This document shows positions 18,561-22,685 of a stretch of 38,531 nucleotides of DNA, in pieces. Where the stretch lies: the NCBI GenBank assembly GCA_018060515.1, contig JAGOVY010000005.1, forward strand, positions 1 to 38,531, written 5' to 3'. The notes beneath the pieces are model-generated. The model was not told the DNA's origin, ran no database searches, and saw nothing but the letters and a program-made list of their open reading frames with translations. The DNA is from Anaerolineaceae bacterium. Lineage in GTDB: Bacteria; Chloroflexota; Anaerolineae; Anaerolineales; Anaerolineaceae. The translations under genes were made by a program, and so were the position numbers. The stretch's first letter is position 1, and every line of letters starts with the position of its first letter.

Positions 18561-19982
18561 ATGGATTTACTGGCATTCAAGAGCACGCTGATCGATTTGT
18601 GCCGTATTAACCCCTCTAAGCCGGTGCTGTTAGGTTTTTCAGGCGGACCGGATTCTGTATGCCTGTTAACCCTTTTGCTTGCCAGCGGTGTACCTTTAAT
18701 CGCGGCGCACCTGGACCATTCTTTAAGGCCCAATTCAGCGCTTGAAAGCGCTCAGGTTGAGGAAATATGCGCAAAGCTTGGAGTGCGCTGCGTGATTAAA
18801 AAGGCGGATGTAAGAGAATATGCCTTAACCCGCCGCATATCCATTGAAGAAGCTGCAAGAGAGGTACGCTACGAGTTTCTCTTTACAACAGCAGCCGCTG
18901 AGAACGCTCAGGCAGTGCTCACCGGTCACCATGCCGATGATCAAGTAGAAACCGTGCTGATGCACCTGCTGCGCGGAAGCGGGCTCAGTGGGCTTGCCGG
19001 CATGCGGATGGTTTCGTTGCCCAATCCTTGGAGCGAATGCATTCCCTTAGTAAGACCGATGCTGTACATCGGCAAGGCAGAAATCGACCGGCACCTGCAA
19101 TCGGTGCCGATCCAGCCGATTCTGGATGAATCCAACCTTGATGCGGGGTTTTTCCGAAATCGGATCAGGCATGAACTTCTCCCGATACTCGAGACCTACA
19201 ATCCGCAATTTCGCGAACGGCTTATCAATACAGCTGAGGTAGTGACGCTGGAAGATGATTTCATGCTGGAGATGACTGAGGCTGCCTGGAAAACTGCGCT
19301 CTTGGAACGTGGCTCTGCCTATCTTGTGTTTGATCGGAAAGCCATCACTGCGCTCAGTCCGGCGATTTTACGCCGCCTGCTGCGCAAAGCCTTGAAAACA
19401 ATCAACGCATCACTGCGCGACATTGACTTTACCCTTATCGCCAGGGCAAGTAATTTTTGTTTCTCTCCATCCCGAACGAACCACATTGATTTGGCCGCTG
19501 GTATCGAAATGTTTTATTACCTAAAAGACAGGTTGGTTATCGCCCTGAGGGAGGATGCTTTACATGAACTTTGGCCGCAGGCTGCGGGGGATGAAGATAC
19601 ACCTATCACGCTGCCGGGCATTACGCGCCTCAACGAAACTTGGTTGTTTCACTCTTCAGTTGAAGACAATTACTTGAAAACTGATGATGCTTACATCGCG
19701 CAGTTTGACGCCGATAAATTGCCAGGCAGTTTATTGCTCAGCCGCTTCAAACCTGGGGAGCGTTTCTCCCCCTTTGGCGCGCAATCACATACACTAAAAT
19801 TAGGAGATTTTTGGACAAATCAAGGGCTGCCTGCTCGAGCCAGAGGAAAATGGCCACTGCTTCGCTGCGGCAACATGCTTGCCTGGGTGCCGGGTTTTCG
19901 GATTGCACAGGATTTACGCGTCAGTGAAACGACTGAAAAAATCATCCGAGTGATATTATGTAAAGCAAAACCGCCGCATTAG
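18561..19982 (+). CDS. tilS: tRNA(Ile)-lysidine synthase
   Basis: TilS converts C34 of the AUA-decoding tRNA-Ile to lysidine, which is essential for reading AUA. The 473-residue protein has the PP-loop LGFSGGPDSVCLLTLL at 24-39, the AHLDHSLRPNS segment, LTGHHADDQVETVLMHLLRGSGLSGLAGM, and a C-terminal domain with RFKPGERFSPFG and LKLGDFWTNQGLPARARGKWPLL. The length agrees with the long, multidomain form. It is a single gene, divergent from the sirtuin. The start is preceded by an extended -10 box at six bases and no ribosome-binding site. Its last codons overlap a stem-loop that probably terminates the gene on the other strand. Confidence 0.95.
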   Translation: MDLLAFKSTLIDLCRINPSKPVLLGFSGGPDSVCLLTLLLASGVPLIAAHLDHSLRPNSALESAQVEEICAKLGVRCVIKKADVREYALTRRISIEEAAREVRYEFLFTTAAAENAQAVLTGHHADDQVETVLMHLLRGSGLSGLAGMRMVSLPNPWSECIPLVRPMLYIGKAEIDRHLQSVPIQPILDESNLDAGFFRNRIRHELLPILETYNPQFRERLINTAEVVTLEDDFMLEMTEAAWKTALLERGSAYLVFDRKAITALSPAILRRLLRKALKTINASLRDIDFTLIARASNFCFSPSRTNHIDLAAGIEMFYYLKDRLVIALREDALHELWPQAAGDEDTPITLPGITRLNETWLFHSSVEDNYLKTDDAYIAQFDADKLPGSLLLSRFKPGERFSPFGAQSHTLKLGDFWTNQGLPARARGKWPLLRCGNMLAWVPGFRIAQDLRVSETTEKIIRVILCKAKPPH

Positions 19983-19993
19983 AAGCGACGGTT
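19962..19993 (-). terminator. Terminator of the recombinase-fold gene, overlapping the tilS stop
   Basis: AACCGTCGC (19993-19985) pairs with GCGGCGGTT (19977-19969) with one G-U pair in minus-strand RNA. The run TTTTGCTTT follows. The loop contains the tilS stop codon (19980-19982). On the plus strand the same stem has a C-A mismatch and no T-run, so it mainly serves the minus strand. Confidence 0.6.
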
Positions 19994-20010: not shown

Positions 20011-20901
20011 TTACTCTCCGGCAAGTTGGCGGAGTTTGGTACTGAATTCACGCCATTGAATTTTGGAAATCCCCAATTTTTGGCGCAAAATATCCTTATC
20101 CATGGGCGACTTCCAATCGTTCAAGGCGCTTGTCCAGCGGCACATATTGAAAGAAAGGTGTTTGGATAAGCCCGCGTCTTGTCCTATTTCTTCGAGCAGA
20201 TACTCCAGGCGGCGCGGTGACCAGGGGAAAACCGTTTCAAGCGGAAAGTACTGCGCAGTGTATTCGTGAAAGGCATCAACCCAATCATTGGTTAGCGGGA
20301 TGTTGCGCTCTTTGTAGCGGCTGCCGCTGGCCGAGTAGCGAACAAAGAGACGCGGGCCTTTGGGACTCACCAAGTCGATATGGTTGAGGGTTAATGCAAG
20401 ACACTCTCCCTTTTTTATGGCAGTCGTCAGCAGCAAGCTAAGCAAAGTGTACGGCCGGGAGTCGGGGTTGGCGGCTGTGCGCAGATTCCTGGCTGAGTCG
20501 AGGACCAGCGCTTCTTCTTCAGGGGTGAGCACCAATGGCAGAGGACTGATGACGTTTTTGTAAAGGACTTTCTCGGAAGGGTCAATTGGCAGCCGACCGG
20601 AAAGGGTAAGCCAGCGGAAAAATGATTTGATCGAAGTAATGCGGCGCGATAGGCTTTTTGGGCTGCAACTAACCGGACGGTCGTTTTCGAGCCAGGAGAG
20701 GAAGCGGTTTATATCATTAGTTGTGATACTGCCTATGCTGGTGTCAGGAGGGAAATAGCTGGCAAAAAGCTTTATATCGCCGATGAATGCTTTCACGGTG
20801 AAATGCGAGCGCCCCTGATCGTACAGATAAATCTCCCACGAGCGTAAGGCAGGGGAAAGCGGAGTTTCGGAAGTGATATGCAGTTCAGGTAGTGTATTCA
20901 T
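20011..20901 (-). CDS. Tyrosine-recombinase-fold protein lacking catalytic residues
   Basis: A 296-residue XerC/XerD-like protein. The N-terminal SAM-like DNA-binding domain spans about 15-105 (SWEIYLYDQGRS, TNDINRFLSWL, SRRITSIKSFFRWL). The C-terminal domain, about 120-290, aligns with the catalytic fold through LLSLLLTTAIKKGECLAL, YKERNIPL and LGISKIQWREF. The active site is lost: the first Arg is Lys163, the H-x-x-R motif reads NMCR (only Arg255 remains), the LGH His is Ile278, and no Tyr exists in the C-terminal 60 residues. DNA cleavage is therefore unlikely and a DNA-binding or architectural role is inferred. It has a near-consensus promoter and its own terminator, and lies among housekeeping genes without att sites or cargo. 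Confidence 0.85.
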   Translation of the reverse strand: MNTLPELHITSETPLSPALRSWEIYLYDQGRSHFTVKAFIGDIKLFASYFPPDTSIGSITTNDINRFLSWLENDRPVSCSPKSLSRRITSIKSFFRWLTLSGRLPIDPSEKVLYKNVISPLPLVLTPEEEALVLDSARNLRTAANPDSRPYTLLSLLLTTAIKKGECLALTLNHIDLVSPKGPRLFVRYSASGSRYKERNIPLTNDWVDAFHEYTAQYFPLETVFPWSPRRLEYLLEEIGQDAGLSKHLSFNMCRWTSALNDWKSPMDKDILRQKLGISKIQWREFSTKLRQLAGE

Positions 20902-20951
20902 CTTTTTAGCTCATCTTTCGCGGAAAAATGCGCATAGTATTATTAATTCAT

Positions 20952-20980
20952 ACTATACAAGCTTATTCAATGCTTGTCAA
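20952..20980 (-). promoter_or_regulatory. Strong promoter of the recombinase-fold gene
   Basis: TTGACA (20975-20980), 17 bases, TATAGT (20952-20957) on the minus strand. The predicted leader is about 45 nt. It ends in an A-rich stretch with no clear Shine-Dalgarno sequence. Confidence 0.75.
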
Positions 20981-21000: not shown

Positions 21001-22020
21001 TCAGGGGTAAATCGCGCGGCGAATGGTTTCAGCAATCGCTTCAAAGTCAGGAATCAAGACCCAAGATCCATTTTCAGGGACGATATATGGCGTAGTTTGA
21101 TCTTCTGTGATCGCATAACGTTGAATAAGTTCAGGGTTTGCCAGAATATCGGCAGCCAATGGCATCAGCGTCACAACAAGGTCGAGTGGAACATTGGTTT
21201 CAACGCTGTTAATGAAAAGGTTGAATAATTCAGGCGCTCGGCTGACCGCATTAAGGCTGATCATTTTCTTTGCAATGGCATAAACGACTTCTTGCGCGCG
21301 ACGGGTGCGGTCAAAATCGCTGGTGGAGGAGCGCGAGCGAACATACCACAGGGCAGTTTTGCCATTCATTGTGTTTAAACCAGAGGGTATGTAGCACATC
21401 TTGTCAACCGCTTGGGGCAGGTCGCAGCGATCATACAATTCGTAATATGCATTTACCGTAATGCCGCCAAGCGCGTCAATGATGTGTGTAAACCCGTAAA
21501 AATTCGTGATCATGTAATAATCCACTGGCACATCAAAGTTGTAGAGCAGGGTTTCAGCGGTTAGATCAAACCCTCCTTTTGCCTGGGTGGTATTAATTCG
21601 CTCGTAGCCAAAACCAGGGATATAAACATACAGGTCACGCGGGAATGAAAGCAACGCGGCGGTTTTCTGTACCGGGTTCAATGACAACAACAACACCACA
21701 TCAGTTCGGAAACCTGCCTCTGGGCGCCAGTCGGAACCCAACAGCAGGATATTTACCTGGTCTTCAGGACGAGGCAGGCCAAGTGAAATCATTCCTGTTT
21801 GCGGTGTTATAGTCGGCGATACTGTGGCGCTGGGTGTGTTGGTTAAAGTAGGCAGATTATCGGTGGAATGAGCTTGAGGAAGAAAAGGGGTGGGGGTGGC
21901 GGTGAAATGGTTTGGGTCAGGCAGTTGAGTGGAATTATTCCTACTGAAGCTTGGGAGGATTGAGCAGCCAATGATGCTGATTAACACTGCCATAAGGATG
22001 ACCCATTTTTGCCTTCGCAT
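21001..22020 (-). CDS. LytR-CpsA-Psr (LCP) family cell-wall polymer ligase
   Basis: LCP proteins attach polyprenyl-linked polymers such as teichoic acids or capsule to peptidoglycan outside the membrane. The 339-residue protein has a hydrophobic segment at 7-23 ending in SIIGC; Cys19 could be a lipobox Cys, so it may be a lipoprotein rather than a signal-anchor protein. A Thr/Pro-rich linker spans about 40-75. The LCP domain follows with LLGSDWRP, the Arg/Asp pair FRTDVVL, LSFPRDLYVYIPG, ERIN and the DFDRTRRAQ pyrophosphate-binding motif. The start has a TAGAAT box seven bases upstream and no ribosome-binding site. It is monocistronic. Confidence 0.9.
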   Translation of the reverse strand: MRRQKWVILMAVLISIIGCSILPSFSRNNSTQLPDPNHFTATPTPFLPQAHSTDNLPTLTNTPSATVSPTITPQTGMISLGLPRPEDQVNILLLGSDWRPEAGFRTDVVLLLSLNPVQKTAALLSFPRDLYVYIPGFGYERINTTQAKGGFDLTAETLLYNFDVPVDYYMITNFYGFTHIIDALGGITVNAYYELYDRCDLPQAVDKMCYIPSGLNTMNGKTALWYVRSRSSTSDFDRTRRAQEVVYAIAKKMISLNAVSRAPELFNLFINSVETNVPLDLVVTLMPLAADILANPELIQRYAITEDQTTPYIVPENGSWVLIPDFEAIAETIRRAIYP

Positions 22021-22027
22021 ACAGGCA

Positions 22028-22033
22028 ATTCTA
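22028..22033 (-). promoter_or_regulatory. -10 box upstream of the LCP gene
   Basis: TAGAAT on the minus strand ends seven bases before the ATG at 22020. TTATCA 18 bases further up is a weak -35 candidate. A leaderless transcript is predicted. Confidence 0.4.
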
Positions 22034-22093
22034 CTCCAAATGGCGGCTGGCTGATAAATCGCATGTTGACAGCACCAATGTCAGTCATTATGG

Positions 22094-22121
22094 TTGACAT
22101 TCTTCAAGAGTCTGTTAAAAT
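22094..22121 (+). promoter_or_regulatory. tRNA-Leu promoter
   Basis: TTGACA (22094-22099), 16 bases, TAAAAT (22116-22121), with a TGT extension just before the -10 box. It is placed correctly for a transcript starting about seven bases before the tRNA. Confidence 0.75.
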
Positions 22122-22134
22122 ATCTCTCTGGAAA

Positions 22135-22218
<84 letters not shown>

Positions 22219-22223
22219 CCTCA

Positions 22224-22254
22224 AAAACCCGCAGAAACCCTGCGGGTTTTCTCT
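22224..22254 (+). terminator. tRNA-Leu terminator
   Basis: An 11-bp stem (22224-22234 with 22240-22250) with a five-base loop ends in a T-run (TTTTCTCTT), six bases after the tRNA. Confidence 0.9.
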
Positions 22255-22289
22255 TGTCCCTGCCTCAAGAATAAGGTAAGATTAATTTA

Positions 22290-22685
22290 ATGCAAAACTT
22301 TTTACAGAAAATAAAAGCATCAATGGATTTGAAGAAAATCGGGCTGATTGCTGCGGCAATTATCCTCCTTCTGTTGGCGATGGATCTCAACAGCCGATTA
22401 AACGAATTGTCACGCCTGACGGCGCAGCGTGATAAAGTAGCTACTTCTGTTGCCGAGCTTGAAAGCACGTACGCCATGCTCAGCACACAGGTGGAATTTG
22501 CCAGGTCAGATGGGGCGGTAGAAGAGTGGGCGTATACTGAAGGAAAAATGGTCAGGCCAGGCGAGGTTCTGGTGATTCCACTTTCGCCGCCAGGTACCAC
22601 ACCACAGCCGGTTGTAATTCCCACGCAGATTGCCCCACCTGTTCAAAACTGGGAAGTTTGGTTTGCGTTAATCGTCGGCAGGTGA
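22290..22685 (+). CDS. DivIC/FtsB-like septum formation initiator
   Basis: A 131-residue single-pass membrane protein. A short basic N-terminus precedes a membrane segment at about 17-34 (IGLIAAAIILLLLAMDL). Then comes a coiled-coil stretch (about 36-70, with Leu/Val heptads), then EEWAYTEGKMVRPGEVLVIPL and a Pro-rich tail ending in NWEVWFALI. This arrangement fits the DivIC/FtsB family that links divisome components, although the family is called mainly from architecture. A TAAGAT box ends seven bases before the ATG, so the mRNA is probably leaderless. The last 18 bases overlap the 3' end of the convergent GAF-phosphatase gene. Confidence 0.7.
   Translation: MQNFLQKIKASMDLKKIGLIAAAIILLLLAMDLNSRLNELSRLTAQRDKVATSVAELESTYAMLSTQVEFARSDGAVEEWAYTEGKMVRPGEVLVIPLSPPGTTPQPVVIPTQIAPPVQNWEVWFALIVGR

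Follow-up and report, generated by a model that had tools for sequence, protein, structure and literature searches.

A catalytically dead Xer-fold protein kept across most Anaerolineae, with a candidate operator at its own promoter

The window, that is, the whole 38,531-nucleotide stretch of Anaerolineaceae DNA that was analysed, encodes a protein (P0001) that has the fold of a Xer tyrosine recombinase and lacks its active site. From sequence comparisons we judge it somewhat more probable than even that this is a domesticated, vertically kept dead Xer, which would serve as an autoregulated sequence-specific DNA-binding protein and would ancestrally have been tethered to the sliding clamp. A preliminary description of this DNA had suggested that a dead integrase fold was kept for DNA binding; that idea is supported by all of the tests that could be run, with the DNA binding itself a prediction.

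As we envisage it, a Xer recombinase without cutting activity would have taken on a sequence-specific DNA-binding role. The protein would bind the asymmetric sequence CTAYRCGMA, which is often doubled with a 13-bp period, around the -10/+1 region of the gene that encodes it, and binding there would limit its own synthesis. Outside the window's clade, a QLPLF-type N-terminal tail would hook the protein onto the DNA sliding clamp, and its main work would lie on replicating DNA (chromosome maintenance or replication control) rather than in a broad regulon; in the window's lineage the clamp tail would have been lost, and the DNA-binding and autoregulatory parts retained.

Domain structure and predicted fold

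The gene and its two domains are as follows.

20011..20901 (-): gene of the dead Xer-fold protein P0001, 296 aa (open frame, Pfam/NCBIfam matches, homologues)
20605..20841 (-): N-terminal SAM-like (core-binding) domain, residues 21-99 (PF02899 Phage_int_SAM_1, E 3.3e-10)
20062..20487 (-): C-terminal tyrosine-recombinase fold without an active site, residues 139-280 (PF00589 Phage_integrase, residue table, AF2 model, Foldseek)

The frame is intact and the two-domain architecture of XerC/XerD (SAM-like plus catalytic domain) is present, as first described: both Xer domains exceed their Pfam gathering scores (Phage_integrase with 28.9 bits against 27.1), and the same arrangement is found in the AlphaFold2 model and by Foldseek. 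The model has a mean pLDDT of 88.4 and a pTM of 0.61, with the relative placement of the domains uncertain. Foldseek matches it to XerA (5hxy, E 2e-11), lambda Int, XerH, Cre and Tn1549 Int, all with probability 1.00, the nearest solved structures being XerA, lambda Int and XerH-DNA. The curated cut-offs of the NCBIfam XerC/XerD models are not reached (76.7 bits against 329.6 needed, and 67.3 against 335.15). An alignment of 18 proteins, P0001 and 17 homologues with 52-60% identity, has many invariant basic residues: K37, K82, R86, R87, K92, K163, K164, R188, K197, R199, R230, R231, R273, K275 and K280.

P0001 matches only general integrase families in PHROGs and nothing in PADLOC. The dead family has no dedicated Pfam or NCBIfam model and is matched by the general integrase models, so genome surveys are likely to miscount the protein as an active enzyme of mobile elements or of dimer resolution.

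Loss of the active site

Alignment with 13 active Xers gives the same catalytic losses that had been read from P0001 by eye: Arg-I is K163, the His of HxxR is N252 (in N-M-C-R255), the His of LGH is I278, and S287 stands at the spacing of the nucleophilic Tyr (LGH+9), with no Tyr among the last 60 residues. From the R-K-H-R-H-Y set only Arg255 is retained, the placement of the hairpin Lys being uncertain. With XerD as the reference and the C-terminal KLRxL matched to the usual end, the stretch after LG is presumably 4-5 residues shorter in the dead proteins than in active Xers.

The set is absent from all 111 aligned members of the dead clade, and neither at this locus nor elsewhere in the clade was a homologue with an intact set found. 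At Arg-I, 108 members have K, two have S and one has R. The HxxR His is kept by none of the 111 (E in 50, D in 32, Q in 21, and others), and the LGH His has become a hydrophobic residue (L, V, I, F or A) in every one. Arg-II is kept in 110 of the 111, and none has a Tyr at the catalytic spacing. The 13 active Xers, which came from the same searches, retain the set at these positions, with Tyr in place of the HxxR His in two. Arg255 and the Lys at the Arg-I position could still grip the phosphate backbone.

Families f27 and f19 have divergent dead-family proteins (L065, L066, L073 and L074): L065 and L066 have Ser at the Arg-I position, and L074 has Arg there with both His lost. Two genomes carry second copies.

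Distribution and descent

Of 249 Anaerolineae genomes sampled, 206 have the dead protein by a profile search (presence threshold E <= 1e-30), with a single copy in nearly every case, and a 251-genome sample of the phylum adds 28 further genomes of other Chloroflexota classes (families f65, f73, f89, f91 and f93). On the tree, a branch with 100/100 support divides the dead clade from all active Xers, and the loss of chemistry maps to one state change.

Promoter, terminator and candidate operator

Four features lie around the gene.

20952..20980 (-): promoter TTGACA-17-TATAGT (11/12 matches; layout repeated upstream of homologues)
19969..19993 (-): terminator-like hairpin, common to the convergent tilS end (terminator scan)
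20929..20938 (-): candidate operator, a conserved oriented site (ACTATGCGCA; consensus RCTAYRCGMA) that follows the -10 box by 13-14 bp
20934..20956 (no strand): inverted repeat ATAGTAT-N9-ATACTAT, read from the sequence, which runs into both the -10 box and the candidate operator

The gene had been credited with a promoter and a terminator of its own. The promoter is found as described (reading 20980..20952 (-)). Regional scans give counts near chance (promoter 1 versus 1.2 in shuffles; terminators 3 versus 1.6), and the promoter call is made weightier by TTGAC-like and -10 boxes at the same place upstream of homologues. The terminator-like hairpin is likewise in place (19993..19969 (-)), shared with the tilS end.

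The core CTAYRCG of the site occurs in 54 of 111 upstream loci, against 7.4 in shuffles. For the longer CTAYRCGMA, 15.6 kb of upstream DNA holds 55 copies in the sense direction and none in the antisense, whereas 551 kb from the same loci holds 24 (14 sense and 10 antisense); this count omits the lineages without the site, which flatters the ratio, and 54/111 over all loci is the fairer test. In 19 cases the site overlaps the -10 box, with 2 bases inside it; the other copies begin 7-18 bp downstream of the box. Because the 19 overlapping copies cannot be fully transcribed, their position speaks for an operator in the DNA more than for an RNA element. The site is absent from f5, from part of f39 and f11, and from the other classes, which counts against the favoured reading; in the other classes no alternative promoter motif was found beyond the -10-like TGCTATAATG. 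In the window the second arm of the inverted repeat overlaps the -10 box, and this arm could represent the site a second time, inverted and degenerate.

Tandem pairs of CTAYRCGMA with a 13-bp period are frequent. Searched genome-wide in ten genomes picked for having it, the tandem pattern gives one promoter match per genome and two stray matches in total. A conserved tandem site nearly unique to its own promoter suggests autoregulation, which we consider likely.

The same site could be occupied by a different regulator, the protein being otherwise as described and not autoregulated. The association is positional only, and the presence of the site changes 7 times on the sampled tree with no clear pattern, both of which leave room for this reading; we hold it to be unlikely, since in many families the site goes with the gene and it is hardly found anywhere else, the pattern expected of a self-contained autoregulatory pair.

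A DNA-binding fold and a promoter-linked site would also suit a conventional transcription factor that controls a regulon, or a nucleoid protein that binds at many places. Single sites are, however, not enriched in the window's own genome (38 matches against 89 for the reversed control), matches across 61 genomes of the order fall below the reversed control as well, and the tandem pattern scarcely occurs outside the gene's own promoter, all of which makes a regulon or nucleoid role quite improbable.

A clamp-binding-like N-terminal tail

A Gibbs search of the upstream DNA of distant homologues locked onto their N-terminal codons, and in this way a motif surfaced in the protein tails (QLPLF, QLSLF, QPSLF and similar). 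With start codons of the relatives taken as predicted, all 18 proteins from other classes match Qxx[LM][FL], as do 33 of the 56 from the remaining Anaerolineae, where shuffling the tails gives 0.67 and 1.25 matches, respectively; the stricter Q[LIVMP]xLF is found in 10 and 23 proteins, respectively. The window's clade has it in 0/36, the N-terminus of P0001 reading MNTLPELHITSETPLSPA. QLPLF-type tails are seen in L035, L088, L114, L117, L121, L126, L104, L106 and others, and in L013 and L014 the Gln is missing (TLPLF and DLPLF). On the sampled tree the motif, with labels assigned by hand, undergoes seven changes.

Published work gives the motif for clamp binding as Q-phi-x-[L/M]-[F/L], with consensus QL(S/D)LF or QLxLF, often in disordered regions and N-terminal in Hda (PMC11139829, PMC4549789). 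Since the tail motif is found in other classes and in most Anaerolineae families, it is probably ancestral and lost in the window's clade. Its absence from P0001 and its 36-member clade would make the replication link only ancestral for P0001 itself; for the family the link is plausible. A more specific proposal, which we regard as speculative and unlikely in this full form, is a replication-coupled regulator of Chloroflexota, tethered to the clamp through QLPLF, limiting itself via a dedicated operator, and playing a Hda/YabA-like role at forks or initiation; in the window's clade the protein would since have been freed from the clamp.

Genomic neighbourhood and coexisting active Xers

The two neighbours of the gene are taken, from their sequences, to be tilS and an LCP-family gene. 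Among loci of the window's order with long flanks, tilS adjoins downstream in 13 of 17, and the LCP-family gene adjoins upstream within this order only. The tilS neighbourhood, whose conservation had been raised as a check, is thus kept within the order and not outside it, and because the linkage is so limited, the neighbourhood offers no clue to function. Complete genomes place the gene at ~6% to >30% of the chromosome from dnaA, and on these distances a location near dnaA was rejected, a point that weighs against the favoured reading. In the window a tRNA-Leu (cag) lies at 22135-22220, just past the LCP-family gene, and the open reading frame at 22009-22290 (+) that overlaps it is probably not a gene.

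Active Xers coexist with the dead protein in most genomes, their type varying by lineage (a single housekeeping Xer or XerC/D-like pairs). Together with the Xer-like fold, this coexistence would fit a protein that, without catalysis of its own, assists or inhibits the active chromosomal Xer, either by occupying a dif half-site or as a regulatory subunit within the synapse, and the reversed promoter site (TGCGCATAG / TTCGTATAG) may resemble the XerC arms of dif. Against it, active Xer types differ, and in five genomes that have the dead protein (G243, G426, G019, G055 and G242) no housekeeping Xer orthologue was found at the threshold used, which argues against a fixed partnership with an active Xer; a scan for dif-like sites also gave no consistent site. 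We accordingly rate the partner or inhibitor role as improbable. The order's active housekeeping Xer (L192, 1477-2460 (-), on contig C88 of the window's genome) has ARH in place of LGH.

Selection and origin

Two further explanations can be dismissed briefly. Chemistry continuing through a different nucleophile is very improbable: Arg255 and a Lys at Arg-I persist and 23 of the 111 members have Tyr residues nearby, but none of these Tyr stands at the catalytic spacing, and every member has lost both His. A decaying integrase or pseudogene, to which the lost active site might point, has practically no probability and is ruled out by dN/dS values of 0.047-0.168 over 13 pairs, the same substitutions across the class, frames open throughout the family with no stops within matches, and the full support for the clade; the gene is selected rather than decaying, as had been supposed at the outset.

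A recent phage or plasmid origin was also rejected: a scan of viral contigs found no relatives of the dead family, and the top phage and plasmid matches are only ~20-29% identical. Two translated plasmid proteins (from Thermus and Athalassotoga) have intact active sites and are active integrases.

Relation to known systems

P0001 is like XerC, XerD and XerA in its two-domain fold and by homology (TIGR02225, E 1.8e-21; XerA 5hxy, E 3.2e-14), and differs from them in having no active site, in scoring far below every equivalog cut-off and in belonging to a separate clade. A streptococcal XerD-like protein also has a Xer fold and is said not to act on dif, a precedent for the idea rather than a sign of common descent.

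Crypton-derived tyrosine recombinases of eukaryotes (DUF3504 proteins, Cbf2/Ndc10 and Gcr1) lost catalytic residues and were kept to bind DNA or to regulate (PMC3212892), and P0001 resembles them in the recombinase fold that would be retained for DNA binding or regulation. They differ in being eukaryotic, in their other recombinase ancestry and in their added domains. These domesticated proteins are not known to carry a clamp motif.

Hda is an AAA+ protein. Its N-terminal disordered clamp-binding motif (QLSLPL; PMC11139829) resembles the tails of the dead Xer relatives, whereas the tail here sits on a dead Xer fold and is missing from P0001.

Domesticated dead tyrosine recombinases are thus documented in eukaryotes, and the present family is a bacterial case that spans most of a class and extends into other classes; its candidate operator and candidate clamp contact make the function directly testable.

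In the PDB, chain 14 of 9i5v (401 residues, named RaiA) matches the N-terminal half of the recombinase when searched with the profile (E 2.2e-07), and from this match the chain may be a fusion or misnamed.
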